Source: an uncultured Treponema sp. (GTDB taxonomy: Bacteria; Spirochaetota; Spirochaetia; Treponematales; Treponemataceae). From it: a stretch of 64,000 nt of DNA. The notes below the pieces were generated by a model. The model searched no databases, was not told the origin of the DNA, and was given only the letters and a program-made list of their open reading frames with translations. The number at the start of each line of letters is the position of its first letter. Within the stretch, counting starts at the first letter, position 1. Below, piece after piece: positions 1,850-54,862 of the stretch. Where the stretch lies: NCBI GenBank assembly GCA_946411505.1, contig CAMKEG010000008.1, positions 1-64,000 on the forward strand, in the 5' to 3' direction. A program made the position numbers and the translations under genes.

Positions 1850-2069
1850 TACGGCTGTTCGCGCGAGTTTTGTTGCGAGCACGATTGCCCGCTCGCGTAA
1901 GCGAGCAAGTAGATAACTTCTTTGCGCAAAACGGCAACGCCGTAATGTTGCCGCTTATTGCCCGCGCTCGTTAGAGCGCAAGTGAATAGTTTCCTTACGC
2001 AAAACGGCGGGTGTGCCCACCGTATGCGGCGCCTATCAATCTTAGGCTTACCATCGATTTTATCGCCGC
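1850..2069 (-). repeat. Structured operon-spacer element, copy before the methyltransferase
   Basis: On the transcribed strand it begins with TAGCGGC, whose TAG is the stop codon of the upstream ABC gene, and ends with CAGCCGTA just before the ribosome-binding site. About 110 bp (1955-2066) match the copy at 3905-4018 closely. Internal parts GGCAATAAGCGGCAAC and CTCGCGCGAACAGCCGTA are shared with all copies. This copy carries extra hairpins (CTCGCTTACGCGAG) inside, and the right partner of the second hairpin is replaced. See the copies at 3859, 8000 and 52700. Confidence 0.75.
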
Positions 2070-3844
2070 TAGATTTTCCAAGACACCGCTTGCTTTCTTG
2101 AGTCGATGAAGCGCGCGTAGATGCCGCCGGACTTTGCGAGCGTCCTGTGCTTTCCTTGCTCGGCGATTTTTCCCTTGTCAATGACGATTATTTGATCCGC
2201 GTCGCGCACGGTCTTTAGCCTGTGCGCTATCATTATGACGGTCTTTTCTTTTGTAAGCTCCGAAACGGCGGCCATAAGGTCGCGCTCGTTTTCGGGGTCC
2301 ACGTTGGCGGTGGCTTCGTCAAGAATGATTATCGGGGCGTCTTTCATGATCGCGCGCGCGATTGATACGCGCTGCTTTTCGCCTCCGCTTAACGAAGCGC
2401 CGCCTTCGCCGATCACCGTGTCGTAGCCGTTTGGAAGCGCCGAGATAAAGTCGTGGCAACAAGCCTTTTTTGCGGCGGCGATTACGTCTTTCATCGGAGC
2501 GCTGGGGTTTCCAAAGCGGATGTTGTTGGCGATTGTGTCATGGAAAAGATAGACGTTTTGGAAGACAAAGCTGAAGTTTGCCATTAGGTCGTCCATGCTC
2601 CAGTCGCGGACATCAACGCCGCCCAAGGTTACGCTTCCCTTGTCCACGTCCCAAAAGCGCGAAAGCAAGTGGCAGAGCGTGGTCTTTCCGCCGCCGGAAG
2701 GGCCTACAATCGCGACCTTTGAACGCTCCGGTATTTGGAGCGAAACGCCGTCGATGATTTTCTTTTTGTCGTAGGCAAAGCTGATGTCGTTCGCGCTTAT
2801 GTCGAGCGGGGCGTTGCGCCGCTCGCGGGCTGCCGGCAATATCGGGCGTCCCCGGCCTTCAATGTCCATAAGCGGAATGTCCAAAATCGCCTGGGCTTTT
2901 TGAACGCCGATGTCGATGACGCGAAGAAGGGCGGAGTAGTTTCCGCCGGCTTCAAGCGCGGCAAAGAGCATGTAGGAACAAATCAGCATGACCGCGCACT
3001 TTTCCAGCGGCATCGAGCCGTTTAGGTAAAACCAAATCGAAGCGAGCGCGATGGCCACGCCCGAAAATTTTGACACGATGGACTGAATCGCCGAGAGCGG
3101 AATGCAGCGCATTTCCATTTTTATGCAAACTTTTTTGGCGCGGTCGATGACGGCGTTCAATTCCTTGCTGCGCTCTCCCGTAAGGTTGTAGGCCTTGACT
3201 TCGGCGATTCCCTGGATGTGCTCCAAAACTTTTTCAATCTGCGCTTCGTCGGCCAAGGATTTTTCCATCGACGCGCCTCGGACTGCAAGGCGCATGAAAA
3301 CGTTCACAAACTGAAAGGCGCAAAAGCCCGCCGTCGCGATAAGCGCTATCCGCCAGTCAAAGAAAAAAATCATCACGATGATAAGCGCGGAATCCAAAAG
3401 GCCTTGCATCACAAGCATGACGGCTCTTGTGGCAACGTCGCCCATAAGCTCCATCGTGTTTGTCGTCACGCTTGTGATTTGGCCGAGAGAGTTTTGGTTA
3501 AAGTATCCCATCGGAACGTAGCGCAAATGCTCGGCGATTTGGATTCGCTTTTGCGCGCAAGTCCTGTAGCCGCCTTCTGTCTGCCACATCGAAACGTTTT
3601 TCTTTGTGACAATAGCCGCGGCCACGCTAAAGGCCATTATTCCAAAGGAAAGCCAAATCGTTTTTGCGCTAAAGGCTTCGGTTCCCGTGGCCGCGCGAAT
3701 CACGCCCTGCATCATTACCGCGATGGCGGCGATTCTAAGCGCCATAAAAAATGAATTCACTACGCCCAAGGCGATCGCCGCGTAAAACTTATTGCGGTTT
3801 TCCTTGTCGCAAAAATTAAAAAATCTTTTAAGTATTTCAAACAT
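2069..3844 (-). CDS. ABC exporter half-transporter (membrane plus ATPase), second subunit
   Basis: About 591 residues. An N-terminal type 1 exporter membrane domain with hydrophobic spans occupies residues 1-310, and the nucleotide-binding domain follows: Walker A GPSGGGKTT, signature LSGGEKQR, Walker B IIILDEATANVDPENE, and switch His in IMIAHRLKTVRDAD. The second ATG is chosen because GGAGG lies 8 bases before it; the first ATG at 3850 is only 2 bases from the GGAGG. With the neighbouring 4020-5774 gene it should form a heterodimer. The closest family pattern is the IrtAB/YbtPQ-like pairs as well as general multidrug exporters; the substrate is unknown. Confidence 0.92.
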   Translation of the reverse strand: MFEILKRFFNFCDKENRNKFYAAIALGVVNSFFMALRIAAIAVMMQGVIRAATGTEAFSAKTIWLSFGIMAFSVAAAIVTKKNVSMWQTEGGYRTCAQKRIQIAEHLRYVPMGYFNQNSLGQITSVTTNTMELMGDVATRAVMLVMQGLLDSALIIVMIFFFDWRIALIATAGFCAFQFVNVFMRLAVRGASMEKSLADEAQIEKVLEHIQGIAEVKAYNLTGERSKELNAVIDRAKKVCIKMEMRCIPLSAIQSIVSKFSGVAIALASIWFYLNGSMPLEKCAVMLICSYMLFAALEAGGNYSALLRVIDIGVQKAQAILDIPLMDIEGRGRPILPAARERRNAPLDISANDISFAYDKKKIIDGVSLQIPERSKVAIVGPSGGGKTTLCHLLSRFWDVDKGSVTLGGVDVRDWSMDDLMANFSFVFQNVYLFHDTIANNIRFGNPSAPMKDVIAAAKKACCHDFISALPNGYDTVIGEGGASLSGGEKQRVSIARAIMKDAPIIILDEATANVDPENERDLMAAVSELTKEKTVIMIAHRLKTVRDADQIIVIDKGKIAEQGKHRTLAKSGGIYARFIDSRKQAVSWKI

Positions 3845-3858
3845 GTGCATTACCTCCG

Positions 3859-4018
3859 TTACGGCTGTTCGCGCGAGCGTTGCAAGCGCGAATGTTGCCG
3901 CTTATTGCCTGCGCTCGTGAGAGCGCAAGTAAATGGTTTCCTTACGCAAAACGGCGGGTGTGCCCAGCCGTATGCGGCGCCTATCGATTTTTGTCTTGCC
4001 GCCGATTGTTTCGCCGCT
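3859..4018 (-). repeat. Structured operon-spacer element, copy between the two ABC genes
   Basis: It occupies the whole spacer from the upstream TAA to the ribosome-binding site of the downstream ABC gene. Read as RNA it starts TAGCGGC, contains a CGCTC–GAGCG hairpin, then GGCAATAAGCGGCAAC, then the stem TTCGCGC/GCGCGAA, and ends CAGCCGTAA directly before CGGAGG. The distal half is the long near-duplicate of 1955-2066. Confidence 0.78.
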
Positions 4019-4019
4019 A

Positions 4020-5805: not shown

Positions 5806-7173
5806 CTAAAAGTTATACTCCGCTTTTAGCCAAATTGCGCTAAGCTCTTGATAGGCGCCGTAAAAGCCCTTTTTGTCTTTGTCAGGCCCGTTTATGAACA
5901 GGTCCGAGCCAAGCGAAAGCGCGATGCTGTCTGTCAAGCTGTATTTGGCTTGAACTTTTATCATGCTGTCAAAATCGTTCAGCCCAAAAAGCCAGGCAAG
6001 CGAAAGGTCAAGCGTTTCCTGAAAAAACGCCTTTGAAACGCTTAGGCTTGTTTGGTGCCTGTAAGAGTCGCGGTCCAAGTGGCTGGAACCGTCAAGGAGC
6101 GCGTCCAAATAATACTGGCCGGTAATAGTCCAGCCGCTTGGAGTCCAGTCAAAGCCCGCCAAGGCGACAAGCTGGTTTTTGTCGCGGAACTTTTCTGCGC
6201 CCATAAGCTGCTCCTTCGCGCTCGCGGCGAAAGTTCTTTGCGGAAAAAACGCGGCTTCAAGCCTAAGAACGACTTCCTTTATCGGAATCGCGGCGTCCGC
6301 TCCGACCATAAGCATTCTCTTGTAATAACCGCTGACCGAAAGCGCTTGCGGATTTCCGCCTGCGTCCCGGACAAGGTTGTATGTCAGGCAAGGCTCGCGG
6401 TCAAAGCCGTAAAAGCCGTAGAGCGAAAAATCCGCGAACGGAAAGAATGCCGCAAGCCGCGCCGCGCCTTCGCTGTTTTCAAGCGAAAGGCCCGGAAGTT
6501 CAAAGTTGCCTTTTGTCACTTGCGCTACAGGAATCGTTCCGTCCGCGCCAAGCGAAACGCTTTTTGGAACCATGATTTTTTTGAGCGGATTTTTTTCCGC
6601 GAGGGGCAGGGAGCTTGGCGCAAAGAATGGAATCCAGTAAGCGTCAAAAAAAAACGCGTCGTTTTTGAACGTAAGCCGCGCCGCGTCAACGCTTAGGCGG
6701 CTGTCGGCGTATTCGCGCGCTAGAATCGTGTTCTCGTCCTTGGCGCAAAGAACGTCGGCCACTTGAAGGCCGTCAGCCTTTCCCCAAGCGGTTGACTGCC
6801 GCCCGATTCGCAAGGCCCAAAAGCCGCCGTCGTAGTCCATCCAAGCTTCCTTTAGTCGCAGGCGGAAGGCCCCGTTGTCCGACACAAAGTCCGCAGCTTG
6901 GAATGACGACTGGCTTCCGATCGCGTCGCCCATCAAAAAGCCGTCGATAAAGGCCGAAGCGTCGCCTTCGTAGATTTTTAGAGAGCCGTCAAGCCGCAGG
7001 TTTCCCAGCAAAAAGTCGCCCGCGTTCTTTTTGTCAAAGCCAAGCCCAACTCCCGCAAGACCTTGAATTTTTCCTGACGGCGAGAAGTCAACTGCCCAAG
7101 CGCTGCGCGGCGCCGCTGTGTTTGCAAGAACTAGCGCGGCGAAAAGCGCGAAGACTGCGGCGAGTTTTTTCAT
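5806..7173 (-). CDS. Exported outer-membrane beta-barrel protein (DUF1302-like)
   Basis: 455 residues with a Sec signal peptide (LAAVFALFAALVLANTAAPRSAWA). The body is rich in alternating amphipathic strands and aromatic girdles (FWALRIGRQSTAWG, LRLKEAWMDYDGGFW) and ends in Phe (WLKAEYNF), the usual outer-membrane insertion signal. The GRQSTAWGKADGLQVADVL stretch resembles the DUF1302 barrels found beside MMPL exporters and LolA-like proteins. ATG overlaps the stop of the upstream gene by four bases, so the two are translationally coupled. It could be the outer-membrane exit or acceptor for what the MMPL protein moves; that role is inferred from context. Confidence 0.78.
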   Translation of the reverse strand: MKKLAAVFALFAALVLANTAAPRSAWAVDFSPSGKIQGLAGVGLGFDKKNAGDFLLGNLRLDGSLKIYEGDASAFIDGFLMGDAIGSQSSFQAADFVSDNGAFRLRLKEAWMDYDGGFWALRIGRQSTAWGKADGLQVADVLCAKDENTILAREYADSRLSVDAARLTFKNDAFFFDAYWIPFFAPSSLPLAEKNPLKKIMVPKSVSLGADGTIPVAQVTKGNFELPGLSLENSEGAARLAAFFPFADFSLYGFYGFDREPCLTYNLVRDAGGNPQALSVSGYYKRMLMVGADAAIPIKEVVLRLEAAFFPQRTFAASAKEQLMGAEKFRDKNQLVALAGFDWTPSGWTITGQYYLDALLDGSSHLDRDSYRHQTSLSVSKAFFQETLDLSLAWLFGLNDFDSMIKVQAKYSLTDSIALSLGSDLFINGPDKDKKGFYGAYQELSAIWLKAEYNF

Positions 7174-7979
7174 CGGACGCTTCCCCGCTCAATGGCGCTT
7201 ACGGTGAACATCTTGTCGTCAAGCGGCAAGTTGTAGCGGACGTTTTTCATTTCAAGCAAAGTGGAGTGTCCGCTTTTTACGTTTTCCATGAACATTTTTT
7301 GCGTCGTCCAAATGCCGTCGATTTGAATTGTCTCCGAGCAAGTAAGGACGCGGGTAAGTTCGTTTTGCCTGTCGTAGAATTCTCCCTTGACGACCTTGTA
7401 GTTGTCCTTTCTGTACCAAATGATTCTTCGCTGCGTTTTTTCGCTTTTGTCCTTGGCGACAGATTCTACTTTCCAACAAGCGTTTCCGTCAACGGTGTCT
7501 TCGCCTAAAAGGTTGAAGGTGTCTTTTGTAAGGCCGCGGTCTCCCATGTCGGCGTAGGTGAAGTCCGTTCCCATAAAGTCGTCGTCCTTTCCGCTTCCGG
7601 CGATGCGGCGCGTTTTTTTCATCGCGGGCATGAAAAGCCAGCTGTCGCTGTCGGGCTTGCTTCCGTCCGCCTTGTCGGGGTAGTCAAAAGAAAGGTAGGC
7701 CACGCCTTCCACGTCCTTGGGAACGACAAAGACAACGACGCTTTTCTTTACGTCGCCGTAATCCTTTTCGCGCGTCATGATTTCGCGCGTTCTTACCGCG
7801 CCTTTTTTGCTTTTAAGCGTCAGCGTCGCCGTGTAAGAGCATGTCTTTCCCTCGTCGACTTCGTCCGCGCGCTTGGCGATATCGTAGCCGGTCAAGTTTT
7901 GGGCAAAGGCCGCAGAGCCTGCCATCGCAAGGGCCGCGCAAAAAATCGCCGCCTTTTTCGTAAATCCAATCCTTTTCAT
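7170..7979 (-). CDS. Periplasmic outer-membrane lipoprotein-sorting (LolA-like) protein
   Basis: 269 residues with a signal peptide (AAIFCAALAMAGSAAFA) and the features of the LolA-like family PF17131 that accompanies MMPL exporters: an early D-x-AK-R-DEV stretch, the DSWLFMPAMKKTRRI block and the FMGTDFTYADM block. The fold is a half-barrel that carries hydrophobic ligands in the periplasm. The start follows TAGGAGG. The leader consists almost entirely of the structured spacer element at 8000-8052. The order exporter, LolA-like carrier, outer-membrane barrel suggests a lipid or hydrophobic-compound route (inference). Confidence 0.85.
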   Translation of the reverse strand: MKRIGFTKKAAIFCAALAMAGSAAFAQNLTGYDIAKRADEVDEGKTCSYTATLTLKSKKGAVRTREIMTREKDYGDVKKSVVVFVVPKDVEGVAYLSFDYPDKADGSKPDSDSWLFMPAMKKTRRIAGSGKDDDFMGTDFTYADMGDRGLTKDTFNLLGEDTVDGNACWKVESVAKDKSEKTQRRIIWYRKDNYKVVKGEFYDRQNELTRVLTCSETIQIDGIWTTQKMFMENVKSGHSTLLEMKNVRYNLPLDDKMFTVSAIERGSVR

Positions 7980-7999: not shown

Positions 8000-8094
8000 T
8001 ACGGCTGAACGCGCGAGCCTTTTGCAAGCGCGTTTGTTGCCGCTTATGCGGCTAGCCAAGCCTTTTGGCCTTGCCGCCGTTCTTATTGCCGCTA
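8000..8094 (-). repeat. Structured operon-spacer element overlapping the MMPL 3' end
   Basis: As RNA it runs from TAGCGGC inside the last codons of the MMPL gene to CAGCCGTAA before the ribosome-binding site of the LolA-like gene. GCCGC-ATAA-GCGGC is a perfect hairpin. The second hairpin is AACGCGC/GCGCGTT here, but TTCGCGC/GCGCGAA at 3859 and 52740: both sides changed and pairing is kept. The first ~58 bp are nearly the same as in the fusA leader. Confidence 0.78.
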
Positions 8095-10427
8095 AAGGGT
8101 TTCGTTAACAAAATTAAGGCGGGCGTAAGCGTGTAGTCCGCCACCAGCGCCGACGACAAGCCTATCATAGCCAAAAGGCCAACCCTAAAAAGGCAGCCCA
8201 TCGGGCTAAAGGTGTACATAAGGAACATCGCGCACAAGATGAATGTCGTCATTCCCATCGTCTTTCCTATTTCGCGGAAGGAGACGGTCACCGACTTTTC
8301 GTAGTCTCCCGTAAGCTCGTAGTGGTACTTTATGTGGTTGATAAAGTGAATCGTGTCGTCAACCGCGATTCCCAAAATCATAGGCATAATCGTCATCGTA
8401 AGCATGTCAAGCGAAAATCCCGCGTAGCCCATCACGCCGCCAACCACAAGCACAGGCGCCAAGTTCGGAATCATTCCAATAAGGCCGGTCTTCGCGCTGG
8501 AGAAGGCCAAAATCAAAAGGACCGCGATCACCACAAGCGAGAACGAGAATGACTTTAGCTCGGCGCTTACAAGCTTGTGGTTCATCTCGGCGTATTCGAC
8601 AACCTCGCCCACGATGCTGATCTTAGCGTCGGGAAAAAGCTCCGCGGCTTTTGCCTTGGCGGAATTTATGTCCTCGACGATTATGTTCGCGTCGTAGCCC
8701 AAAAGCTCCACGTGAACGCGCGTCGTTCCGTAGTCTTCGCCTTCTATGTCAAACCAGTCGTCAAAGTTGGGCGCGTAAAAGACCAGGTTTTGCGCGATGA
8801 CAGCGTCGTCGTCGGGAATCGCGTAAAATTCTTTTTGGTCGTTGTTGAACATTCGGTTTATTTCCTTCATCATTTGGCAACCGCTTGTGACGCGGGGCTT
8901 TGTTCCGGAAATTTTGGTCAGTTTTAGTTTTCCAAGCGCGCTTTCCAACTCCTCCAGCTTTTTGAAATTTTCCGCGCTCTTAAAAGCGTTGGGGTCGCCG
9001 TCGCGGACCATGACGTCGTAGCTGTAAAGGCTTCCCAAGGGGCCTGAGAGCGTGTCCAAAATGCGCGCGACGTAGGGAATCTTTTTTCCCATCATCTCTA
9101 TGTAGTCCATGTTGACTGTGATTCTAAAAAGGCCTGGAGCAAGCGCGAGAACCGCCGCGAAAGAAAAAACGGCCACAAGCTTTTTTCTTTTTTCGACAAG
9201 CTTTCCAAAACTCTCAAAGGCAAGGTCGGCCTTGGTCGCGCCGGTTTTTGAGGCCGCGCCTTCCTGGACTTTTCCGTCCTTTCCAAAGCTCATCAAAATC
9301 GGAATCAGCAAAATAACGTAAAGGTAAACGGCAAAAACAATCGCGGTCGACGCTCCTCCCATCCAGCGGATCGGCTCGATTCCCGCGAACAAAAAGGAAA
9401 CAAGCGAAGCCATTGTCGTAATGACCGTGAACAAAATCGGCCAGCCGCTTTCTTCCACCGCCTTGACGACGGAATCTTTTCTTAGTCCCGTCCGCCTAAA
9501 GTGCATCCTGAATGAGTTTACGTAGTGAACCGAATAGCCGACCGATAAGGCCATGCCAAGCAAAATCGGAAGCGTGACCATGTTTGAGTCGGCGACGATT
9601 CCCAAATGCGCGCTAAGGCCCAAGACCGAGCCGATTCCTACTGTGGTCGCCAAAAGCGGAACGATGACTCCGCGAAGCGAGCGTACAAAAAGCAAAAGGC
9701 AAAGAATCATCACGACAAAGCCGCTAAGGACGCGGATTTTCGTTTCATGCTCAACGACGTCGTTTTCTTCCATTTCGCTGTAGGACATTCCCATCGGCTT
9801 CAGCTCGTAGGCGCCGTTCGCTTTTTTTGCTTCGTCAAGAACCACTTTTTGCGCGTAGCGGGCTATTCCTTCGGCGGCGAATTCCATTCCGCCCTCGTAG
9901 TTTTCCAAGGAAAGAATTACCCAAGTTTCCTTCGCGTCGGCGGAAACAAGGTTGTCGCAAATGGATTCGCGGCTAAGGATGAATTTTTTCTTGGCCTCAA
10001 GCTCGGCGGGGTCGGAAGGGATTCCGTTCTCAAACGGATTTTTTATTTCGATGCTGTCTTCCGTTCCAATCGGAATTTCGGCCGTCATAAGCGAAGTCAC
10101 TTCGTCGGCGTAGGGGACTTCCTGTTCAAGCCGCTTTCCAAGCCGCTCGATTCCTTGCAAAACTTCCGGCTTAAAAACGTCGTCCGCTCTGACCATGACC
10201 ATAATCGCGTCGTCGCTTCCGAAAATTTCCTTAAACTGGTCGGAGTCAACTTTGACTTGCTCCCAATCCTCAAACCAGGCTTCGTCGTCGCTTGCCATCT
10301 TGAACTTTGGAAGGCCCGCAAGGCAAATGACTGAAAGCGCGCACAAGGCGGCCAATATCCGCCATCTAAAGCGCAGCTGCCAGACTCCGACTTTTTCAAA
10401 AAACTTGTTTATGCTTGAAACTTTCAT
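8052..10427 (-). CDS. RND/MMPL superfamily exporter
   Basis: 791 residues with the duplicated architecture of MMPL-type predicted exporters (COG1033): one N-terminal span (about 20-40), a large periplasmic loop with DDAIMVMVRADDVF, a block of spans near 240-380, a second span at about 420, a second periplasmic loop and a final block of spans with the sterol-sensing-domain-like GIAVDDTIHFINHI. It should export a hydrophobic compound using the proton gradient. It is the first gene after a TetR-type operator array, so de-repression by a ligand is likely. Its last 13 residues (SGNKNGGKAKRLG) are encoded by the dispersed spacer element. Confidence 0.9.
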   Translation of the reverse strand: MKVSSINKFFEKVGVWQLRFRWRILAALCALSVICLAGLPKFKMASDDEAWFEDWEQVKVDSDQFKEIFGSDDAIMVMVRADDVFKPEVLQGIERLGKRLEQEVPYADEVTSLMTAEIPIGTEDSIEIKNPFENGIPSDPAELEAKKKFILSRESICDNLVSADAKETWVILSLENYEGGMEFAAEGIARYAQKVVLDEAKKANGAYELKPMGMSYSEMEENDVVEHETKIRVLSGFVVMILCLLLFVRSLRGVIVPLLATTVGIGSVLGLSAHLGIVADSNMVTLPILLGMALSVGYSVHYVNSFRMHFRRTGLRKDSVVKAVEESGWPILFTVITTMASLVSFLFAGIEPIRWMGGASTAIVFAVYLYVILLIPILMSFGKDGKVQEGAASKTGATKADLAFESFGKLVEKRKKLVAVFSFAAVLALAPGLFRITVNMDYIEMMGKKIPYVARILDTLSGPLGSLYSYDVMVRDGDPNAFKSAENFKKLEELESALGKLKLTKISGTKPRVTSGCQMMKEINRMFNNDQKEFYAIPDDDAVIAQNLVFYAPNFDDWFDIEGEDYGTTRVHVELLGYDANIIVEDINSAKAKAAELFPDAKISIVGEVVEYAEMNHKLVSAELKSFSFSLVVIAVLLILAFSSAKTGLIGMIPNLAPVLVVGGVMGYAGFSLDMLTMTIMPMILGIAVDDTIHFINHIKYHYELTGDYEKSVTVSFREIGKTMGMTTFILCAMFLMYTFSPMGCLFRVGLLAMIGLSSALVADYTLTPALILLTKPFSGNKNGGKAKRLG

Positions 10428-10578: not shown

Positions 10579-11202
10579 ATGGCGGATTCCTCTATGGAAA
10601 CAAAAAAAACGCTTTTGGAAAGCGCGAAAAAAGAATTCCTCCAAAAAGGCTTTGCCGGCGCTTCGCTTAGGACGATTGCCGCCAACGCCGGGGTCACTAC
10701 GGGCGCGATGTATCGCCACTTTAAGGACAAGGACGCCTTTTTTTGCGCCCTTGTTGACGACGCGGTGGATGCGACAAAAAAAGTCGTCATGTTCGCGGAC
10801 TCCAAGACCCACGCCGGCTTTGAATCCCCCCACATGCAGGAACACATTGATTTTGAGAAAAAAATGACCTTTGATTTTTTGGACTATGTGTTCGAAAATT
10901 TTGACGCCTTTACGCTTTTGCTTACAAAAGCCGGCGGAAGCGCCCATGAGCGCTTTCAGGAAAACATTTGCGAACTATATACAAAAAATTGCGAGGAAAC
11001 TTTTAAATGGATGCTAAAGCAGGGTATTGCCACGAAAAAAGTTTCTTCCATGACCGTCCATTTTATGGCTTCTACTGTCATAAACGCCTTTTGCGACATT
11101 ATCCTTCACAAAATGACAAAGAGGCAGGCCGCGGCCTACATTTCCGACGTGATGGAATTTACCCGCGCCGGATGGCTTGCTTTGTCCCAATGCAAGATTT
11201 AG
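10579..11202 (+). CDS. TetR/AcrR-family transcriptional regulator
   Basis: 207 residues. The N-terminal helix-turn-helix is typical of TetR: TKKTLLESAKKEFLQKGFAGASLRTIAANAGVTTGAMYRHFKDKDAFF, with YRHF closing the recognition helix. The rest is an all-helical ligand-binding and dimer domain. The ORF track starts upstream at 10519 inside an operator; ATG 10579 is better because it fits the family N-terminus and the promoter spacing. ATG 10594 with GGCGG before it is the alternative. It is divergent from the MMPL operon and very likely represses it through the four palindromes. Confidence 0.92.
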   Translation: MADSSMETKKTLLESAKKEFLQKGFAGASLRTIAANAGVTTGAMYRHFKDKDAFFCALVDDAVDATKKVVMFADSKTHAGFESPHMQEHIDFEKKMTFDFLDYVFENFDAFTLLLTKAGGSAHERFQENICELYTKNCEETFKWMLKQGIATKKVSSMTVHFMASTVINAFCDIILHKMTKRQAAAYISDVMEFTRAGWLALSQCKI

Positions 11203-30868: not shown

Positions 30869-30893
30869 AAAAATGTTCGGGGCAAGCCCGAAC
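30866..30893 (-). terminator. Terminator for the minus-strand metallo-hydrolase gene
   Basis: ATGTTCGGG-CTTG-CCCGAACAT read on the minus strand, followed by T7 (A7 on the plus strand). It overlaps the rpmB stop region. Confidence 0.75.
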
Positions 30894-30906
30894 ATGACAT
30901 TGTGTC

Positions 30907-30936
30907 ATCGCCGCGCTAGCCGCGGCGATTTTTTTT
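30907..30936 (+). terminator. Terminator for rpmB
   Basis: ATCGCCGCG-CTAGC-CGCGGCGAT followed by T7. It overlaps the last codon of the convergent gene, so the two terminators lie nested back to back. Confidence 0.85.
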
Positions 30937-39498: not shown

Positions 39499-41455
39499 CG
39501 CGGACCGCGCGCCTTCAAGCGGCGCGCTTGTTCTTGCCGTTGACATAGGAACGACTTCCCTCAAGGCCGCCTTTGTAAGCGCGGCGGGGGAAGTTTTTGA
39601 TTTTAAAAGAATTGACTATAAGTCATTGCCGCACTCTGACGTCAGCCAGTCATTGCCGGGCTTGCCCCGGCAATCTTTGCAAGACCTTAACCGCGCGGCC
39701 CAAAATGACGGGAAGCCCAATGATGGGGCGGCCAACCAAAAAGCGTTTCAAGGCCAAAACGGGGCGGCCGCTTGGGTCGCCGCCTTGCGCGAATTTTTTC
39801 CAAGCCGCTCGCTCGCTGCCTGCGCCGCCGTCTCCGTTTCCGGGAACGGCCCCACAATCGTCGCCGCTGACGGAACGACCCTTTTGTGGTCGGCCGCGAC
39901 CGAGAGCGTTTGCAAGACCGAGAACGCGGGCGAAGAGAATTGCTCGCAAGCCCAAGAAGGAGCCGCCTCCGACAACGCCGCGCAAACTGATTGCAAGCCC
40001 AAAACTGCCGCCGCCCCCTGTCATTGTCGGGCTCGACCCGACAATCTTTTTTCCAAAATCGACATTCCCGACGCGCAAAAAAAAATCTACGAGCCGCGCC
40101 TTGCCGCATTTAAAAAACTTTTTCCCGACGCGTGGCAAAAAAGCCCGCGCCTTTACACATCAACCCAATGGCTTTGCGGCTGGATAAAAGACAACGCGGC
40201 GTCTATTGGCCTTCCAAGCGGCCTTCCGGTCTTTGACTCAGGCCCTGATTTTATCGCCGCTCTTGTCGGAACTGCCGCGCTTTTCCCGGGCCGCCTTTGC
40301 GACCGGGCCGGTTCCAGCGAAGGTCTGAACTTGTGTTCCCCAAAATTTTTTGAAGGCTCGAATCTTAGGACAATGCCCTCGCCGGCCAAGGGCTTTTGGA
40401 ACGTCTCTTACTTGATTTCCGACCCCGGTTCCAGCCGGCAGGAAAAGTTGGACAATTTTAAAAAGGCTTTCAACGCCCTAAAGGAGGCGGCCGCCGCAAA
40501 CGGCGTTCCGTTTGGGGGCAGGGTGGTCGTGACAGGAGGTCAGGCTCGCGACAAGGATTTGCTTGTGACCAAGGAAGCCGCTGTCGGCGCGACAATAACG
40601 ACGGCCCAAATCCCTGACGCGGAACTTTTAGGCGACGCGGCGGCCGCCTTTTTTAGGCTTGGAACCTATTCCAGCCTTGAGGAAGCCGCCTGCGCTCTTG
40701 TGAGGCTGGAATGCGATGTTTGCGAACGGTCGCGGCCGGGCGGCGTTTCTCAGGCTTTAGACAGTTCCGTGTCTGGCGGGCCTGTCATTGTCGAGCGCGA
40801 CCCGGCAAACTTTCCGCGCTTTTACAACGTTCCGTCCGACATAAAGGCGATAATCTTTGACATAGATTCCACGCTCTACACAAACGCGGCTTACGCCTTT
40901 GAGCAGGTTGACTGCCAAGTGCGCCGCTTCGCTTCCATTCGCGGTATCACAAACGACGAGGCGCGCAAGATGGTGGCCGACTACCGCAAAAAATACGCGG
41001 CGGAAAACGGCGGAAAAAAAGTTTCGCTTTCAAACACGCTGCGCTCTTTTGGAGTGAGCATAGAGCAAAGCGTCCAGTGGCGGCGCGAGCTTATAGAGCC
41101 GGCCGACTTTTTGGGGCCTGACAAAAAATTGCAAGAGGCCCTGGCCGCGCTTGGCCGCCGCTACAAATTGCTTTGCGTTACCAACAACCCGATTTTGCCC
41201 GCGCAAAAAACTTTGGACGCGCTGGGCGTTTCGGACTTGATGGAAGTTTTGGTTGGCCTTGACACTTGCAACCTTTCAAAGCCGGCCAAGGAGCCCTTTG
41301 AGCGCGCGGCAAAGGAGGCCGGCGTTCCCTTTGACAAAATAATAAGCGTGGGCGACCGCTACGACTTGGACTTGGCGCCGGCCCTGGAGCTTGGAATGGG
41401 CGGCGTTTTGGTTCGCGGCGTGGAAGACGTTTACAAGCTTCCCGAATTGATTTGA
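39485..41455 (+). CDS. FGGY-type sugar kinase fused to a HAD-family hydrolase
   Basis: 656 residues. Residues ~15-430 resemble FGGY carbohydrate kinases: LAVDIGTTSLKAAFV (phosphate 1 motif), VSVSGNGPTIVAADG, YTSTQWLCGWIKDNAASIGLPSG and the C-terminal GGRVVVTGGQARDKDLLVTKEAAVGA. Residues ~445-656 form a HAD phosphatase with motif I IIFDIDSTLYTN, motif II CVTNN, Lys in NLSKPAKEPFERA and motif IV SVGDRYDLDLAPALELG. Kinase plus phosphatase in one chain is unusual. Three in-frame palindromic repeats lie in the kinase part (see 39649, 40019, 40783). The sugar is unknown. Confidence 0.8.
   Translation: MTSNDADRAPSSGALVLAVDIGTTSLKAAFVSAAGEVFDFKRIDYKSLPHSDVSQSLPGLPRQSLQDLNRAAQNDGKPNDGAANQKAFQGQNGAAAWVAALREFFPSRSLAACAAVSVSGNGPTIVAADGTTLLWSAATESVCKTENAGEENCSQAQEGAASDNAAQTDCKPKTAAAPCHCRARPDNLFSKIDIPDAQKKIYEPRLAAFKKLFPDAWQKSPRLYTSTQWLCGWIKDNAASIGLPSGLPVFDSGPDFIAALVGTAALFPGRLCDRAGSSEGLNLCSPKFFEGSNLRTMPSPAKGFWNVSYLISDPGSSRQEKLDNFKKAFNALKEAAAANGVPFGGRVVVTGGQARDKDLLVTKEAAVGATITTAQIPDAELLGDAAAAFFRLGTYSSLEEAACALVRLECDVCERSRPGGVSQALDSSVSGGPVIVERDPANFPRFYNVPSDIKAIIFDIDSTLYTNAAYAFEQVDCQVRRFASIRGITNDEARKMVADYRKKYAAENGGKKVSLSNTLRSFGVSIEQSVQWRRELIEPADFLGPDKKLQEALAALGRRYKLLCVTNNPILPAQKTLDALGVSDLMEVLVGLDTCNLSKPAKEPFERAAKEAGVPFDKIISVGDRYDLDLAPALELGMGGVLVRGVEDVYKLPELI
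39649..39676 (+). repeat. In-frame palindromic element, copy 1
   Basis: ATTGCCGGG-CTTGC-CCCGGCAAT within GTCATTGCC…GCAATCT, translated as SLPGLPRQSL. It lies in a low-complexity stretch of the kinase domain. Confidence 0.75.
40019..40047 (+). repeat. In-frame palindromic element, copy 2
   Basis: ATTGTCGGG-CTCGA-CCCGACAAT within TGTCATTGTC…ACAATCT, translated as CHCRARPDNLF. The stem differs from copy 1 by compensating C/T and G/A changes. It interrupts a linker-like region. Confidence 0.75.
40783..40809 (+). repeat. In-frame palindromic element, copy 3 (degenerate)
   Basis: CTGTCATTGTCGAGCGCGACCCGGCAAAC, translated as PVIVERDPANF, in the linker between kinase and HAD domains. Stem pairing is partly decayed. 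Confidence 0.6.
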
Positions 41456-42579: not shown

Positions 42580-44415
42580 TCAATCAAACAGCGCTTGGAC
42601 GGCGCGGGCGTAGCCGCTTTGCGTGTAGTTGTAGAGCGCGGTCCAGCCAAAGCCGTCTTCCTTTGGAAAAATTTTTTTGTCGTAGGGAAGGTTCATGCTG
42701 ATTCCGATTGTCCGGCTTGCGGCGCCCGATTTTTTTATTTCGCGCGCGAGGCTTGCCGGGTAGGCGGCCTGCCAAAGCTTTTTGTCCTTTACCGCGCCGC
42801 CCGTAAGCTGCGTGAACACTAGGATTAGGCCTGCGTTTTTGGCGGCCGCCTTGTCTTGCGCGTTCGGGCTTTTTCTTTCCTCGTAGCAAATGAATTGCGC
42901 GTCGTTGATTGAGCGCGCGGCGAGCGCTTTTTGCAGGACTTCAATTTTGTCGCCAAAGGGAACAAAGACCGCGACTCTTTTTCCGCGCGCGCGGACCGGG
43001 GCGGTGACGTTGACAAAGGACGCTCGCGCCGCGGCGGTTTGAATTTGCGCGCATTCCAACAGCGCCTTTTGCTTTCGCTCCTTTTCCATCGGAACTATTT
43101 TTTGCGCGAGCGGGCAAAGCTTTCCGTCTTGAACGGCGACCAAGCCGGCCTTAAGCTTTAGTTCCAGCGAGCGGAAGACGGCCTGGTCCAAGGCCTTTTT
43201 TTCAAGGCTTCCGTCGTCGACGGCGGCTTCGACCTTGCAAAAAAAGTCTTCCAAAAATTCCGCGTCCTGCTTTGAGTAGACGTTTATCGGATTTATTATC
43301 AAGTCGCAGCCGGCGTTTACAGCCAGGACAAAGCTTTGGTCGGCCGTCCAGTTTTTGTATATCGCGGCCATGTCCATCGCGTCGCTTATGACCGCGCCCT
43401 TGTAGCCGAGCGAGCCGCGTAAAATTTTGGTCAGGATTTTTTTTGAAAGCGTTGCGGGCGCGACAAGGCTCTTCGCGCTTTTGGAGCTTTTTAGCCTTGT
43501 CTTGTCAAGCCGCGGGCACTGGATGTGCGCGGTCATTATCAGTGGAATGTCGTCTTGAATGTTTTTCTTGAACGGAAGGGCCTCGACCCTTTTCCATTTT
43601 GCGGGCGTGGAGTGGATTGCCGGCAAGTCCAAGTGCGAGTCTTCCGAAGTGTCGCCGTGGCCGGGAAAATGCTTCGCGCAGGGAAGAACTCCGGCGCTCA
43701 AAAGGCCTTGGCTGAAGGCCGCCGAAAATTCCGCCGTCTCTTGCGGGTCGCTTGAAAAGCTTCTTATGCCGATGACCGGGTTTTGCGGATTTGAGGCCAC
43801 GTCGCAAACCGGCGCCAAGTCCACGTTTATTCCGTAGTCAAGCAAAAGCTGGCCGTTGGCTTTTCCGCACAAAAAGGCGTTTTGCGCGTCGCCGCTCTTT
43901 CCGATGGCCATCGCGCTTGGCGTCGCAAAGTCGTATACGCGCGCCACGTTTCCGCCCTCTTGGTCGGCGAAAAACAAGAGCGGCAAATTGTTTCCGTCGA
44001 GCGCGGCCTTGTTCAAGTCGCGTATGAAGCGCTTGGCTTCGGCGGCGCTTGTCATGTTCTCCCCAAAAAGGATTACAGAGCCTATGTGGTAGTCGCGGAC
44101 TGTCTTGTAAATCGTTGGGTTGATTGTGTTTTGCGCGGCGAAAATCTTCGGGTTTTCAACCGACAGCGCGGGGTTGTAGGCCGGCCGCCTTTCCGCCGAG
44201 TCCGTCCAAAAGCGAAAGTTCATCACGCAAAGCGCGCCGATCTTTTGGCGCGTTGTCATCGAGTCCACGCAGTCTTTTATTGCGGCCTTCGCGCGCCTGT
44301 CCACAATCGTCCGGCTGTCCGCAATCGCGCTCGCGGCGCTATGCTCGTTTTGCGCGGCTAAATTTATCGGCAGAGCCAACGCCAGCGACAGCGCGGCTGC
44401 AAGAAATTTTTTCAT
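42580..44415 (-). CDS. Exported glycoside hydrolase family 3, beta-N-acetylhexosaminidase (NagZ-like)
   Basis: 611 residues with a signal peptide (FLAAALSLALALPINLAAQ). GH3 landmarks: FADQEGGNVARV, KHFPGHGDTSEDSHLDLP (the NagZ catalytic His-Asp loop) and the nucleophile Asp in GAVISDAMDMAAIY. The C-terminal ~200 residues form the second GH3 domain. It should remove N-acetylglucosamine from peptidoglycan fragments or other hexosaminides outside the inner membrane, unlike cytosolic E. coli NagZ. A promoter-like TATAAT lies 11 bases before the ATG. Confidence 0.9.
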   Translation of the reverse strand: MKKFLAAALSLALALPINLAAQNEHSAASAIADSRTIVDRRAKAAIKDCVDSMTTRQKIGALCVMNFRFWTDSAERRPAYNPALSVENPKIFAAQNTINPTIYKTVRDYHIGSVILFGENMTSAAEAKRFIRDLNKAALDGNNLPLLFFADQEGGNVARVYDFATPSAMAIGKSGDAQNAFLCGKANGQLLLDYGINVDLAPVCDVASNPQNPVIGIRSFSSDPQETAEFSAAFSQGLLSAGVLPCAKHFPGHGDTSEDSHLDLPAIHSTPAKWKRVEALPFKKNIQDDIPLIMTAHIQCPRLDKTRLKSSKSAKSLVAPATLSKKILTKILRGSLGYKGAVISDAMDMAAIYKNWTADQSFVLAVNAGCDLIINPINVYSKQDAEFLEDFFCKVEAAVDDGSLEKKALDQAVFRSLELKLKAGLVAVQDGKLCPLAQKIVPMEKERKQKALLECAQIQTAAARASFVNVTAPVRARGKRVAVFVPFGDKIEVLQKALAARSINDAQFICYEERKSPNAQDKAAAKNAGLILVFTQLTGGAVKDKKLWQAAYPASLAREIKKSGAASRTIGISMNLPYDKKIFPKEDGFGWTALYNYTQSGYARAVQALFD

Positions 44416-44625: not shown

Positions 44626-47187
44626 CTAGTTGAAGACGCGCACGCCGCAAGCTTTTAGCTCACCTTTTTTGTCAAATAAAGCGATGCCTTTTGAATCGCT
44701 TGCAAAAATGGCAGCTGTTTGCGTGTCTTGGTGAATTTTTGACGGGTCCCAGCAGCTTGAGGACCATGTCCAGTCGCCTTCGACAATTTTGGTTGTTATC
44801 CCAAGAGCGTCAAAAGAATTGTTTACGGTTTCTAGGTTTGCGAACAGGGTAATCAGCTCTTTTGATGCCGGCAAGTACCATTTGTCGTCGTTGTAAATTC
44901 CCTTCCTGTTATCCACTTCCGCAAACCAGAACGCAGGGTATGCGCCCGCGCTCCAAACGCCCATGTGTTGATGCGCGGCTGTTTTGTTTGCTAATCCGTC
45001 CTCTTCGGAAACTGTGTATTCATTTGTGTTGTAAAGGGCCGCGCCGTCAGAGCACCACTTTTTCTTTTCTCCAATTTTTACGCCCACGCCTTTTTTATTT
45101 GCGGCGTCAAAAATAATTGCGACGGCTGCGCTTTTTTGCGAAGCGGTCATTTTATCCCTGTCGGCGTAGCGCACTACAAGGCCGTTGTCCAGCACGATGT
45201 CGCCAAGCTCTTTTGCTTCTGTCGCCGCGACTGTGGGCCCGGTAAAGAATGTCGCGCTTACCGTCACGTTTTGCGCCGGCATCGTGAAGGTTCTTGTAAG
45301 TCCGCTTCCGCCCAAATTGGTCGCTCCGGTCACGCTAATTGAATCGGCCGTGTAGTCGTAATAGTTGGCCGCGGCTATTACAAGGGTCACCGTCTGGCCG
45401 TAAGTGGCGCTTGTGATGGCCTGGCCGCTTGAGTTTTTGGCGGTGACAGTTCCGTTTGCAATTCCGCTTGTGGTGATTGTGTAATTTATCGCCGTGAATG
45501 TCGCGCTTATAGTGACGTTACCTGCCGGCATCGAAAATGTTCTTGCGCTGCCATTGGTAATTCCGCTTCCTGACAGAGTAATGGCGCTTGCAGAAGTTGA
45601 TGCAGAAATTGAGCTGAGTTCATAGCCAGTGTCAGGTTTAATTGTAAGGATTACAGGTGTGTTATAAGCGGCGCTTGTAGCATTTGTTGTTGAAATTGTA
45701 TCAACTGTAACACTTCCGTGTGACATTGTCTGCTTTGTAATTGAATATGATATTTGTGTGAATGTCGCGCTTACAGTGACGTTTTCCGCCGGCATAGTGA
45801 AGGTTCTTGTAAGGCCGTCGCCGCTTGTCGTCACCGCTTCGCCGCTTGCCTTTGTTACGGCAATGCTCGAAAGCTGGTAGCCAGTCGCGGGGCTTGCGGT
45901 AAGAGTTACTGTCGCGTTCGCTTCCGCTGCGCTTGCATTTGTTGAATTTACGCTTGCGGTAACCGTTCCGTTTGAAATGCCAGAGGTGGAAATGTCGTAT
46001 TCCGGCGCGGCGGTCTGCGCGGTCCAGCCAGAGGGAATGCCGCTGTTGCCTGTAGGCCAATCCACGCCGTTGGCTTTTACGAAGGTTCCTGTGGCAGAAA
46101 CGTTAGAAAGCCAAGATATTGTAGCCTCGCTTGCGGCAATGCTTGTTGCTAGGCATTTTACATAATTCAGTTTCTCGCATCCACGGAACATTTCTGAATA
46201 ACATTCTTTAACCAATGTTTTTGCGGGAAGATCCGGCGCTTTTTCCAATTTTTTGCATTCATAGAACATTCTTTCATAGCATTTTTCATATAATGTAGCG
46301 GACGGAAGCGCAGGCGCTGTCGTCAAATTTGCGCAGTTGTAGAACATATTGCTATAGCAAGACTTAGCCAGGCTTGTGGCAGGAAGGTCCGGCGCTGCCG
46401 CCAAATTTGCGCAGCCATGAAACATGCTGCTGTAACAAGACTCAGCCATGCTTTTGGCTGGAAGAGCCGGCGCGCTTGTCAAGGCCTCGCAGCCGGAAAA
46501 CATGCCGCTGTAACAATACTCAGCCAATGTTGTCGCCGGCAGTTCCGGCGCGCTTGTCAAGGCAGAGCAATCTTCAAACATTCTAGCATAGCAATTAGAA
46601 GTGATTGTTGTCGCGGGAAGAAGGAGCTTCTTTTCTGAATGGTTTTTAATGTGGGTATTGTTTCTAAACATCATTGCAAAGGCGCCGGAAACAGTTAATG
46701 ACGTTTTGCTTTTATAGTCCGAAGAATCAAGAAGGCTCATTATGTTTCCATAAACATAACAATCGCTTGAACACTTAATCGTTAAATACTTATTATTGTT
46801 TACGTCATTCTCAGAGCCATTCGCAAAGAACGCAACCTTGTCTCCCGCGCTAACTTGAATTGGCGAAGATATTGATGACGCGGACTTCTTTGATATTGCG
46901 GCAGGCATATTATTTTGAACGCTAACAGTAAGAGTCTTCAATTCGCCGTCATTTATTTTATACTTAAGAGTTGACCATGGATTGACAATTGAGATGCTTC
47001 CGTCCGCAATCGCCTCAAGCGTGAGCGGAATGTCCAGCTCTGTCGGAGCGGGCGTTTGTTTGGGCGCGCCGTTCAACAAACCTAAAAGGGCCGCGTTGTT
47101 GCTGTCGCTGGCGTTGGAACAGCCGGCGGCGGCGAACAAGAATCCAAGCGCCGCTATGATTGCGGCCAAGCCTAAAAACTTTTTCAT
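44626..47187 (-). CDS. Surface lipoprotein with BspA-like LRR and InlB-type repeats
   Basis: 853 residues. Lipobox FAAAGC after a hydrophobic signal. Residues ~185-345 hold six 26-residue leucine-rich units of the pattern CYSxMFxGCxxLxxAPxLPAxxLAxx, similar to Treponema/BspA surface repeats. Residues ~385-640 hold three ~80-residue InlB B-repeat-like units (SGxxNGTVTA … GYxLSSI … RTFTMPAxNVTVSATF). The C-terminal ~190 residues end in a DUF1566-like domain (WYLPASKELITLFAN … WSSS). Likely a surface adhesin or polysaccharide binder. It is divergent from a membrane-anchored regulator, and direct repeats overlap its promoter region. Confidence 0.85.
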   Translation of the reverse strand: MKKFLGLAAIIAALGFLFAAAGCSNASDSNNAALLGLLNGAPKQTPAPTELDIPLTLEAIADGSISIVNPWSTLKYKINDGELKTLTVSVQNNMPAAISKKSASSISSPIQVSAGDKVAFFANGSENDVNNNKYLTIKCSSDCYVYGNIMSLLDSSDYKSKTSLTVSGAFAMMFRNNTHIKNHSEKKLLLPATTITSNCYARMFEDCSALTSAPELPATTLAEYCYSGMFSGCEALTSAPALPAKSMAESCYSSMFHGCANLAAAPDLPATSLAKSCYSNMFYNCANLTTAPALPSATLYEKCYERMFYECKKLEKAPDLPAKTLVKECYSEMFRGCEKLNYVKCLATSIAASEATISWLSNVSATGTFVKANGVDWPTGNSGIPSGWTAQTAAPEYDISTSGISNGTVTASVNSTNASAAEANATVTLTASPATGYQLSSIAVTKASGEAVTTSGDGLTRTFTMPAENVTVSATFTQISYSITKQTMSHGSVTVDTISTTNATSAAYNTPVILTIKPDTGYELSSISASTSASAITLSGSGITNGSARTFSMPAGNVTISATFTAINYTITTSGIANGTVTAKNSSGQAITSATYGQTVTLVIAAANYYDYTADSISVTGATNLGGSGLTRTFTMPAQNVTVSATFFTGPTVAATEAKELGDIVLDNGLVVRYADRDKMTASQKSAAVAIIFDAANKKGVGVKIGEKKKWCSDGAALYNTNEYTVSEEDGLANKTAAHQHMGVWSAGAYPAFWFAEVDNRKGIYNDDKWYLPASKELITLFANLETVNNSFDALGITTKIVEGDWTWSSSCWDPSKIHQDTQTAAIFASDSKGIALFDKKGELKACGVRVFN

Positions 47188-52669: not shown

Positions 52670-52698
52670 TTGAAAGCAATTTGAATCTTCATTATAAT
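52670..52698 (+). promoter_or_regulatory. fusA promoter
   Basis: TTGAAA, 17 bp, TATAAT. The transcript begins inside the structured leader element and is about 103 nt long before the ATG. Confidence 0.8.
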
Positions 52699-52699
52699 A

Positions 52700-52793
52700 T
52701 AGCGGCAAAAAAACGGCGGCAAGCCTAAAATTCTGGATAGCCGCATAAGCGGCAACATTCGCGCTTGTTGACTAACGCGCGCGAACAGCCGTA
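52700..52793 (+). repeat. Structured leader element, copy before fusA
   Basis: It starts TAGCGGC two bases after the -10 and ends CAGCCGTA, eight bases before GGAG. GCCGC-ATAA-GCGGC (52740-52753) is a perfect hairpin and TTCGCGC…GCGCGAA a second. Sequence and order match the operon-spacer copies at 1850, 3859 and 8000 on the other strand, always in the sense of the gene that follows. Confidence 0.78.
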
Positions 52794-52807
52794 CTGTTGG
52801 AGTTATT

Positions 52808-54862
52808 ATGTCTTTGGAAAAAATGCGCAACATCGGAATCATGGCCCACATCGACGCGGGAAAAACCACGACCACCGAACGAATTCTTTACTATACAAAA
52901 AAGATTCACAAGATTGGCGAGATTGACGACGGCCAGGCCACGATGGACTGGATGGCGCAGGAACAGGAGCGCGGAATCACGATTTGTTCCGCCGCCACCA
53001 CAACCTATTGGAAAGACTATCAAATCAACATAATCGACACGCCCGGCCACGTTGACTTTACCGCCGAGGTTGAGCGCAGCCTTCGCGTGCTTGACGGCGC
53101 CGTGTGCGTTTTGTGCGCTGTCGACGGCGTTCAGCCCCAGACCGAAACCGTTTGGAAGCAGGCCGACGAGTTCAACGTTCCCCGCTTGTGCTTCATGAAC
53201 AAGATGGACAGAATCGGAGCCGACTTCTTTGGCTCGATGGAAGACGTCCACAACAAGTTTGGCGTGGAATGCGTCGCTCTCCAAATCCCAATCGGCCAAG
53301 GCCCCGACTTTGAGGGCGTGATTGACCTTTTAAAAATGAAGGAAATCCGCTGGGACGCGGAAACTGAAGGCGAAAAATTCACCGAGAGCGACATCGACCC
53401 AAGCCGCTTGGACGAGGCGAAAATGTGGCGCGAAAAGTTGGTGGACGCGGTTGCCTCAAGCGACGACGCTCTTGCCGAACTTTACTTGGAAGGAAAGGAA
53501 ATCACGGTGGAACAGCTAAAGGCCGCGCTCCGAAAGGGCACGATAAGCCGCGCCTTCGTTCCCTTTGTCATGGGAAGCTCGCGCCACAACCAGGGCGTGC
53601 AGCCGCTTATCGACGCGGTCGTCGACTACCTTCCGGCGCCGGACGAAATTCCTCCGGCCAAGGGCGTCCACGTAAAGCGTGACAAGACAGAGGACGTCGA
53701 AGTTCCCTGCAAGGAAAACGGACAAGCCCTTGGCCTTGTATTTAAGATTCAGTACGACCGCGAGATGGGCCCCCTTTGCTACGTCCGCATGTATTCAGGA
53801 AAAATCGCTGCCGGAACGCAAGTCTTTAACGTGGGAAAGAAAAAGCGCGAGCGCGTGAACCGCATTTTGCGCATGCACGCCGACAAGTCCGAGCCAATGG
53901 AAAGCGTTTCCGCGGGCGACATCGCGGTCTTCATCGGCCTAAAATTGGCGCAGACCGGCGACAGCCTTGGAAGCGAAGGCTTTCCCGTCCTTTTGGAAAG
54001 CGTCAACTTCCCCGAGCCTGTAATAAGCGTGGCCATCGAGCCGGACTCAATCAGCGAGCGCGACAAGCTCAACGAAACTTTGGAAATACTTTCGCGCGAA
54101 GACCCCACGTTTACCCATAAAGAAGACGCCGAAACCGGCCAGATGATTATCAGCGGAATGGGCGAGCTGCACCTTGACGTTTTGGTCACCCGCATGAAGG
54201 ACGACTTTGGCGTAAAGGCGCGCGTAGGCTCTCCGCAGGTAACATACCGCGAGGCCGTAACCGCCCAGTCCACCGCGACCGAAAACTACAGCCGCGTCCT
54301 TGGCGGAAAGGAAAACACGGCTGGCGTCACGGTCACAATCAGCCCGCGCGAAACAGGTTCTGGCAACAGCTACGAATGCCTTGTCCGCGACTCTTCCATT
54401 CCCGAGGAAATTTTTGACGCCGTCAAAAACGGCTTTGAAAACGCGCTCGCGGCCGGAATCAACTACGGCTATCCTTGCGTTGACACGGCCGTCAGCGTCA
54501 CCGCGCTTGACTACAACGAGCTTACCTCGACGACATTTGCCTTTGAGGCTTGCGCCGTGGCCGCCTTTGACAAGGCTTGCAAGGGCGCCGCTCCGGAACT
54601 TTTGGAGCCTGTGATGGACGTTGAAATTTCTTGTCCCAAGGAATTTGTCGGCGACGCGATGAGCCAAGTGACCCAGCGCGGCGGAATGATTTTGGGCCAG
54701 GACTCCAAGCCCAGCGCGGAATTGATTCACTGCGAGGCGCCGATGGCCAAAATGTTCGGCTTTAGCACCAACTTGCGCAGCGTAACCCAAGGCCGCGCAA
54801 GCTTCCAAATGGAGTTCAGCCACTTCCAAGTAAAAGCCGGCGGCCTCAGCAGCGCGTATTAG
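52808..54862 (+). CDS. fusA: Translation elongation factor G
   Basis: 684 residues. G domain: AHIDAGKTTTTERILYYT (P-loop), RGITI (switch I), DTPGHVDF (switch II), NKMDR. Domains II-V follow, with GELHLDVLVTRMKDDF in III and the C-terminal FGFSTNLRSVTQGRASFQMEFSHF in V. It moves tRNAs and mRNA through the ribosome. It is rather short, and spirochaetes carry more than one EF-G; which of them this is cannot be decided here. It stands alone, away from the str operon. Confidence 0.94.
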   Translation: MSLEKMRNIGIMAHIDAGKTTTTERILYYTKKIHKIGEIDDGQATMDWMAQEQERGITICSAATTTYWKDYQINIIDTPGHVDFTAEVERSLRVLDGAVCVLCAVDGVQPQTETVWKQADEFNVPRLCFMNKMDRIGADFFGSMEDVHNKFGVECVALQIPIGQGPDFEGVIDLLKMKEIRWDAETEGEKFTESDIDPSRLDEAKMWREKLVDAVASSDDALAELYLEGKEITVEQLKAALRKGTISRAFVPFVMGSSRHNQGVQPLIDAVVDYLPAPDEIPPAKGVHVKRDKTEDVEVPCKENGQALGLVFKIQYDREMGPLCYVRMYSGKIAAGTQVFNVGKKKRERVNRILRMHADKSEPMESVSAGDIAVFIGLKLAQTGDSLGSEGFPVLLESVNFPEPVISVAIEPDSISERDKLNETLEILSREDPTFTHKEDAETGQMIISGMGELHLDVLVTRMKDDFGVKARVGSPQVTYREAVTAQSTATENYSRVLGGKENTAGVTVTISPRETGSGNSYECLVRDSSIPEEIFDAVKNGFENALAAGINYGYPCVDTAVSVTALDYNELTSTTFAFEACAVAAFDKACKGAAPELLEPVMDVEISCPKEFVGDAMSQVTQRGGMILGQDSKPSAELIHCEAPMAKMFGFSTNLRSVTQGRASFQMEFSHFQVKAGGLSSAY

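Follow-up and report, generated by a model that had tools for sequence, protein, structure and literature searches.

Small repeats of bacterial genomes are usually seen as parasitic, their structure and orientation being linked to mobility at the DNA level, and the REP elements, high-copy extragenic palindromes present in transcripts, go together with RAYT (Y1) transposases. The BOX, RUP and SPRITE repeats of Streptococcus pneumoniae are, in the available part of their description, short, interspersed, strongly folded, modular, mutually nested and often co-transcribed, as well as slow-moving and only partly common to strains (PMC3049150). ERIC/IRU and other enterobacterial MITE-like repeats appear in the available portion of a second source as imperfect palindromes of ~100-130 bp at transcribed intergenic sites, with ERIC influencing mRNA stability in an orientation-dependent manner (PMC2229807). 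The TAACTGA direct repeats of marine Beggiatoaceae are lineage-amplified, lie mostly in forward orientation directly 5' of start codons and carry stops in all three frames (PMC4679880). The 64-kb window studied here, by which we mean the whole stretch of 64,000 nucleotides analysed, contains four copies of an element that invites comparison with all of these. We think it most probable, at about 0.62, that the element is a small non-autonomous interspersed repeat family which was amplified in a group of rumen Treponema, became adapted to transcription units and kept its RNA fold.

The four copies named in a preliminary description were recovered at the positions given in Table 1, all of them sense to the next gene and ending just 5' of its Shine-Dalgarno (SD) sequence and start codon. 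Copy 1 is directly preceded by a promoter-like site (TTGAAA-17-TATAAT) and starts immediately 3' of the sigma-70-like -10 box, which ends at 52698. Copy 2 lies 5' of a LolA-like gene (7170-7979, -) and is entered by the upstream MMPL gene (8052-10427, -), the stop codon of which falls inside hairpin 1, and the C-terminus of the MMPL protein is encoded by the copy. Copies 3 and 4 flank the second of two ABC-transporter genes: copy 3 adjoins the TAA of the first (4020-5774, -) and precedes the second (2069-3850, -), and the TAG of copy 4 (2069-2071) is the stop codon of this second gene. The gene at 1830 (-), 3' of copy 4, looks from its translation like a SAM methyltransferase. The weak match in the last line of Table 1 is possibly a decayed copy. 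Three further observations were made in passing. Element-encoded tails (for example SGNENGGKP) end upstream proteins at window 8052-8094, L111 4308-4403 and L112 4300-4395, these being C-terminal residues added to host proteins by the repeat. Three 78-nt tandem units occupy window 46304-46537, probably within a repeat-protein gene. A dispersed palindrome, CCTGTCATTGTCGGGCTCGACCCGACAATCTTT, occurs in several copies and in both orientations (window 30869-30933, 39646-39678, 40017-40049 and 40781-40813).

Table 1. Positions of the repeat copies and associated features in the 64-kb window.
Feature	Position	Strand	Description
Copy 1	52700..52793	+	uninterrupted, 95.5 bits; 14 nt 5' of fusA ATG
Hairpin 1 of copy 1	52702..52744	+	GCGGC ... 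GCCGC, variable loop
Hairpin 2 of copy 1	52749..52792	+	GCGGC / AACA internal loop / TTCGCGC ... GCGCGAA / CA / GCCGT
3' tail of copy 1	52794..52802	+	CTGTTGGAG, with Shine-Dalgarno
fusA (EF-G)	52808..54862	+	gene 3' of copy 1
Copy 2	8000..8094	-	uninterrupted, AACGCGC/GCGCGTT variant, 98.2 bits
Copy 3	3860..4019	-	64.8 bits; contains insert A
Insert A in copy 3	3905..3971	-	67 bp, ACGG...GGCAA
Copy 4	1850..2071	-	contains two inserts
Insert A in copy 4	1958..2023	-	66 bp
Insert B in copy 4	1885..1943	-	59 bp, ACGGCGTTGCCG...GGGCAA
Weak match	42711..42802	-	28 bits

Copies 3 and 4 owe their greater length to a second repeat, of 59-67 bp, that lies inserted within each. The boundaries of insert A are exact, as given by an orthologous sister-species copy (G035 L140 10475-10566) that is without it, and the sequence of insert B has 15 matches in the same genome as the window (its own genome, G000). 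This second family has the form ACGG...TTTTGC...two hairpins...GGCAA and is found either nested in the element, which it enters at fixed points in the linker or the upper stem and in which its presence is polymorphic, or standing alone (as at G000:C6:10104-10155). A third repeat, TTGCGGCGCGATAATTNTATTCGC... and then GAGTCAAGGC-like sequence, was seen directly 3' of some copies, namely at L104 directly after 10043 (+) and at L153 directly after the element at 10765-10930 (-).

The preliminary description had argued against chance, and the copy number bears this out. The 2.82-Mb genome has 31 occurrences of the 13-base core ATAAGCGGCAACA and none of its reversed control; of 30 such loci that were read, a few are chance matches in repetitive coding genes (L003, L005, L013 and L014) and the rest are real. 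A covariance model, R1, was built from 20 uninterrupted copies (alignment A1) and gave 94 matches in the own genome at E<=0.1, 54 of them above 70 bits, with the number of elements somewhat below 94 since insert-split copies give two or more matches. When R1 was run at E<=1e-5 against 200 genomes of the genus, 10 were positive, every one multi-copy, and no copy at all was found in the other 190. The carriers besides the own genome are about nine other rumen Treponema species, each with many copies. In agreement with this, the matches listed from a pattern scan of GTDB genomes include at least nine rumen/reticulum Treponema MAGs (RUG13809, RUG14489, RUG239, RGIG7863, RGIG9962, Tb.RUG.459, UBA4377, RUI024 and RUG14523). 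Six single non-Treponema records among those listed gave no match to the R1 model and were taken as chance. No Rfam family reached its gathering threshold for the element, and the open-access literature yielded nothing relevant on such repeats in Treponema. The unit measures about 96 nt plus a tail of ~12 nt. Like a MITE it is short, non-coding, high-copy, interspersed and strongly base-paired, and unlike one it is not A+T-rich, the G+C of strong copies being about 0.46-0.64.

Presence of the element varies between species at orthologous sites, which may be filled in one and empty, or reduced to a remnant, in another. The clearest empty site is TTGGAGGAC^TAAAAAAATGG (G035 L148), where the same gene in the own genome (G000 L095) holds a 108-nt insertion, TAGCGGC...TTTTAGGAGGAC. 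At many other loci the 'empty' sequence is too diverged for exact junctions, several being deletion remnants, and decay by internal deletion is frequent among the copies. Tandem arrays of two and three units are found at L097 and L118. Empty sites, remnants, tandem arrays and nested inserts thus argue for spread by amplification, and the alternative of an ancestral regulatory leader had to be given up on this polymorphism and on the 190 genomes without a copy. Supported instead is the suggestion that the element is mobile, with a fixed preference in where it inserts, as judged from lineage-restricted amplification, presence and absence in sister species, and tandem and nested copies. The distribution suggests transposition as the route. 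Among the copies no general target-site duplication was found, nor good terminal inverted repeats, the resemblance of TAGCGGC to TACSGC being confined to the structured ends; the element behaves like transcribed repeats of the MITE/ERIC/BOX type and can for these reasons count only as a putative MITE. A TA duplication, considered for the TA at both structured ends, was rejected as a general rule on the base that follows the 3' TA: of 45 TAG-stop copies, 34 have T/C there and not A/G; one locus (L092 12829 vs L227) does fit it. Flanking repeats of 9-13 nt accompany 11 of 174 copies, against about 0.7 expected, and lie partly in tandem arrays. At one locus (L093:10523-10616 in G000, L210:7825-7920 in RUI024) flanking direct repeats of 12-15 nt match within each species and differ between the two (CGCTTGATAGGAGAA vs GCGATAGGAGAA), a pattern that looks like concerted change. 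As to candidate mobilisers, a RAYT/REP system was rejected on finding no Y1 transposase in the own genome or in G035, and an IS630-type one on finding no DDE_3 domain above cut-off in the own genome.

Amplification within one lineage, together with tandem and nested copies, frequent decay by internal deletion and neighbouring genes in which we saw no functional theme, would also suit a purely selfish repeat. Its palindromes would then serve DNA mobilisation only, compensation would arise through hairpin template switching or from several active sources, the sense bias would reflect only the loss of harmful insertions and the RNA would have no role. This we regard as possible and on balance rather unlikely, for reasons that come from the fold and are given below.

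Gene maps were drawn for 174 copies with home-made codon-score gene calls, long-ORF calls having given false antisense genes. Between codirectional genes 124 copies are sense and 3 antisense, the latter all in longer gaps; 29 lie between convergent and 11 between divergent genes, and 7 at contig ends. In divergent gaps the 3' end of the element points mostly toward the near start codon. The upstream gene ends on the element's own TAG (offset -3) in 45 copies, at offset 0 in 21 and at -2 in 7, and it enters hairpin 1, where further stops follow the 5' TAG, in about 27. In 86 copies the element is followed by the start codon of the downstream gene after 15-20 nt. After the last hairpin the tail has the consensus YTGTTTGGAGG, and the end of copies just before a ribosome-binding site, described earlier for the window, holds at large, with the SD 4-7 nt from the element end in 85 of the 124 codirectional copies. 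The SD probably belongs to the unit itself: in the 29 convergent copies, which have no gene to serve, the tail motif is weaker yet detectable (permutation p<1e-4), and this favours a unit that ends in its own SD over an insertion that duplicates one. An SD-like motif also occurs immediately 5' of the element in 44 of 174 copies, against 9 expected, and 40 of these 44 have another on the 3' side.

Two explanations address this placement directly. A structured site that lies directly past stop codons and always in one orientation recalls the attC recombination sites of integrons, an identity we find scarcely credible with single dispersed copies in conserved operons in place of cassette arrays and with no RYYYAAC/GTTRRRY core sites seen by eye. 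An intrinsic terminator or attenuator repeat, SPRITE-like, would account for stable GC-rich hairpins between genes, and is highly improbable: neither hairpin is followed by a T run, the fusA leader has no terminator-like site and the element sits sense before essential genes.

The conserved structure consists of two tandem hairpins (1:2 and 3:4 pairing) joined by an ATAA linker. Hairpin 1 is GCGGC...GCCGC with a fast-changing loop, and its pairs 3-7/44-48 are 100% paired; through a double change, 2 of 20 copies have C-G in place of G-C. Hairpin 2 has a GCSGC/GCSGY base, an AACA vs CA internal loop, a 7-bp stem and a 2x2 internal loop, and both of its helices show multiple compensated variants. 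Over the 19 pairs 97.6% of cells are paired, and double changes occur in 7 pairs, amounting to 21 cells where shuffles give 3.4; with the partner shifted by 1-3 columns, pairing falls below 45%. The compensation first noted in the second stem (TTCGCGC/GCGCGAA vs AACGCGC/GCGCGTT) was confirmed and extends over 156 copies from ten genomes, which are related, so that their covariation counts, like the other copy counts, are non-independent: the upper stem occurs as TTCGCGC, TCCGCGC, TTTTTGC, TTTGCGC, AACGCGC, TTCGCCC and rarer forms, each with its complement, and the deciding base pair of hairpin 2 is C-G in 87 and G-C in 68. What did not survive is the GCCGC-ATAA-GCGGC stem of the preliminary description. 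RNAalifold and folding of GCGGC-type copies predict it, and in these copies free-energy folding favours this alternative pairing; in over half of the copies it is disrupted, segment 3 being GCCGC in about half. As the G-to-C change in segment 3 abolishes this hairpin, it is not what is conserved, and the 1:2 and 3:4 pairings are kept by compensation. When copies are folded one by one, only a part of them does better than shuffled sequence. The compensatory covariation supports one fold, that of a structured cis RNA.

On the sense strand 24 non-canonical pairs are G·U and 5 A·C, with the closing pair (G·U in 112 of 156) set aside; the associated p=5e-4 treats copies as independent and is, the copies being related, indicative only. 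An excess of G·U over A·C fits selection on the sense RNA and would not be expected from correction of a DNA palindrome. This strand-specific bias thus speaks against the purely selfish repeat, as does the AACA/CA loop, which has stayed asymmetric (150/156 and 149/156) and has not been corrected to a perfect palindrome. So do L102/L226 and L092/L227, where a pair change is compensated while most of the remaining element is unchanged. Comparison of 26 pairs of orthologous copies between species showed 14 pair positions at which both partners had changed and still pair (13 without one degraded copy). Against these stand 14 one-sided breaking changes, of which two are true, both in hairpin 1 (L144 and L162 2903); the remainder are insert-split stems or degraded copies. 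Selection on a folded RNA, as originally proposed, accordingly draws support from compensation across copies and orthologous loci, from G·U over A·C and from the 124:3 sense ratio. Neither random orientation nor a lack of covariation was encountered, and the original observation is right and understates the case.

In 19 orthologous pairs the linker and internal loops differ at a rate of 1.6%, the helices at 5.6%, the tip of hairpin 2 at 7.7% and the loop of hairpin 1 at 14%. Near-invariant single-stranded parts suggest recognition by something. That the internal loops change slowest, that the site lies beside the SD and that copies precede conserved genes such as fusA would all agree with a dispersed host regulon: the ATAA/AACA/CA motifs of the two-hairpin leader would be recognised by a protein or small RNA, and translation or stability of the downstream genes would be under its control. 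With only 10 of 200 genus genomes positive, sister species polymorphic at the same genes and 29 copies between convergent genes, such a regulon appears distinctly unlikely.

Returning to the amplified family adapted to transcription units, we propose that each unit would read in the mRNA as a stop (TAG), hairpin 1, the ATAA linker, hairpin 2 with its AACA/CA loop, a spacer and an SD. A unit inserted in sense, whether at a stop codon or between SD and start codon, would leave both neighbours expressed, because it would terminate translation on its 5' side and supply an SD on its 3' side, and antisense copies in short gaps would not persist; we infer that selection in this way caused the sense orientation. 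Since helices and internal loops are retained after insertion, the folded transcript probably acts in cis, and candidate effects are that it protects operon mRNA or promotes its processing, or that it keeps the downstream ribosome-binding site isolated. A bolder and doubtful version is that of a mobile 'intercistronic cassette' carrying a stop, a two-hairpin RNA and an SD, which would target stop codons and ribosome-binding sites and become a cis RNA selected copy by copy. Were it true, operons including that of fusA would be under a lineage-wide and rapidly rewired post-transcriptional layer. Whether and how mobile repeats turn into mRNA elements becomes directly testable with this set of about ten related genomes, in which filled and empty sites occur naturally.

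The features listed above for BOX, RUP and SPRITE in the available part of their description are all common to the Treponema element (PMC3049150). Those repeats are overrepresented between convergent genes, whereas the Treponema element has 124 codirectional sense and 29 convergent copies, and BOX and RUP end in terminal repeats of the kind that resident IS carry, of which we found none here; a stop-plus-SD layout does not figure in that part of the source (PMC3049150). With ERIC/IRU, compared by description only, the element shares size, imperfect palindrome and transcribed intergenic site, and differs from them, as the available portion of the source describes them, in its sense-only distribution and SD tail (PMC2229807). 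Compared with REP it is longer and has two unlike hairpins, and no Y1 transposase was found in the own genome or in G035. Lineage amplification, forward orientation, a site upstream of start codons and stops are likewise found with the TAACTGA repeats; these are heptamer arrays without such a fold that occupy the RBS position, mostly without an SD, whereas the Treponema hairpins are followed by a good one (PMC4679880). Rfam cis-regulatory leaders have the 5' leader position and covarying fold in common with the element, which, unlike them, does not stay with its downstream gene throughout the genus. What sets the Treponema element apart is its self-contained stop-hairpins-SD layout, its near-exclusive sense orientation and its per-locus compensation.
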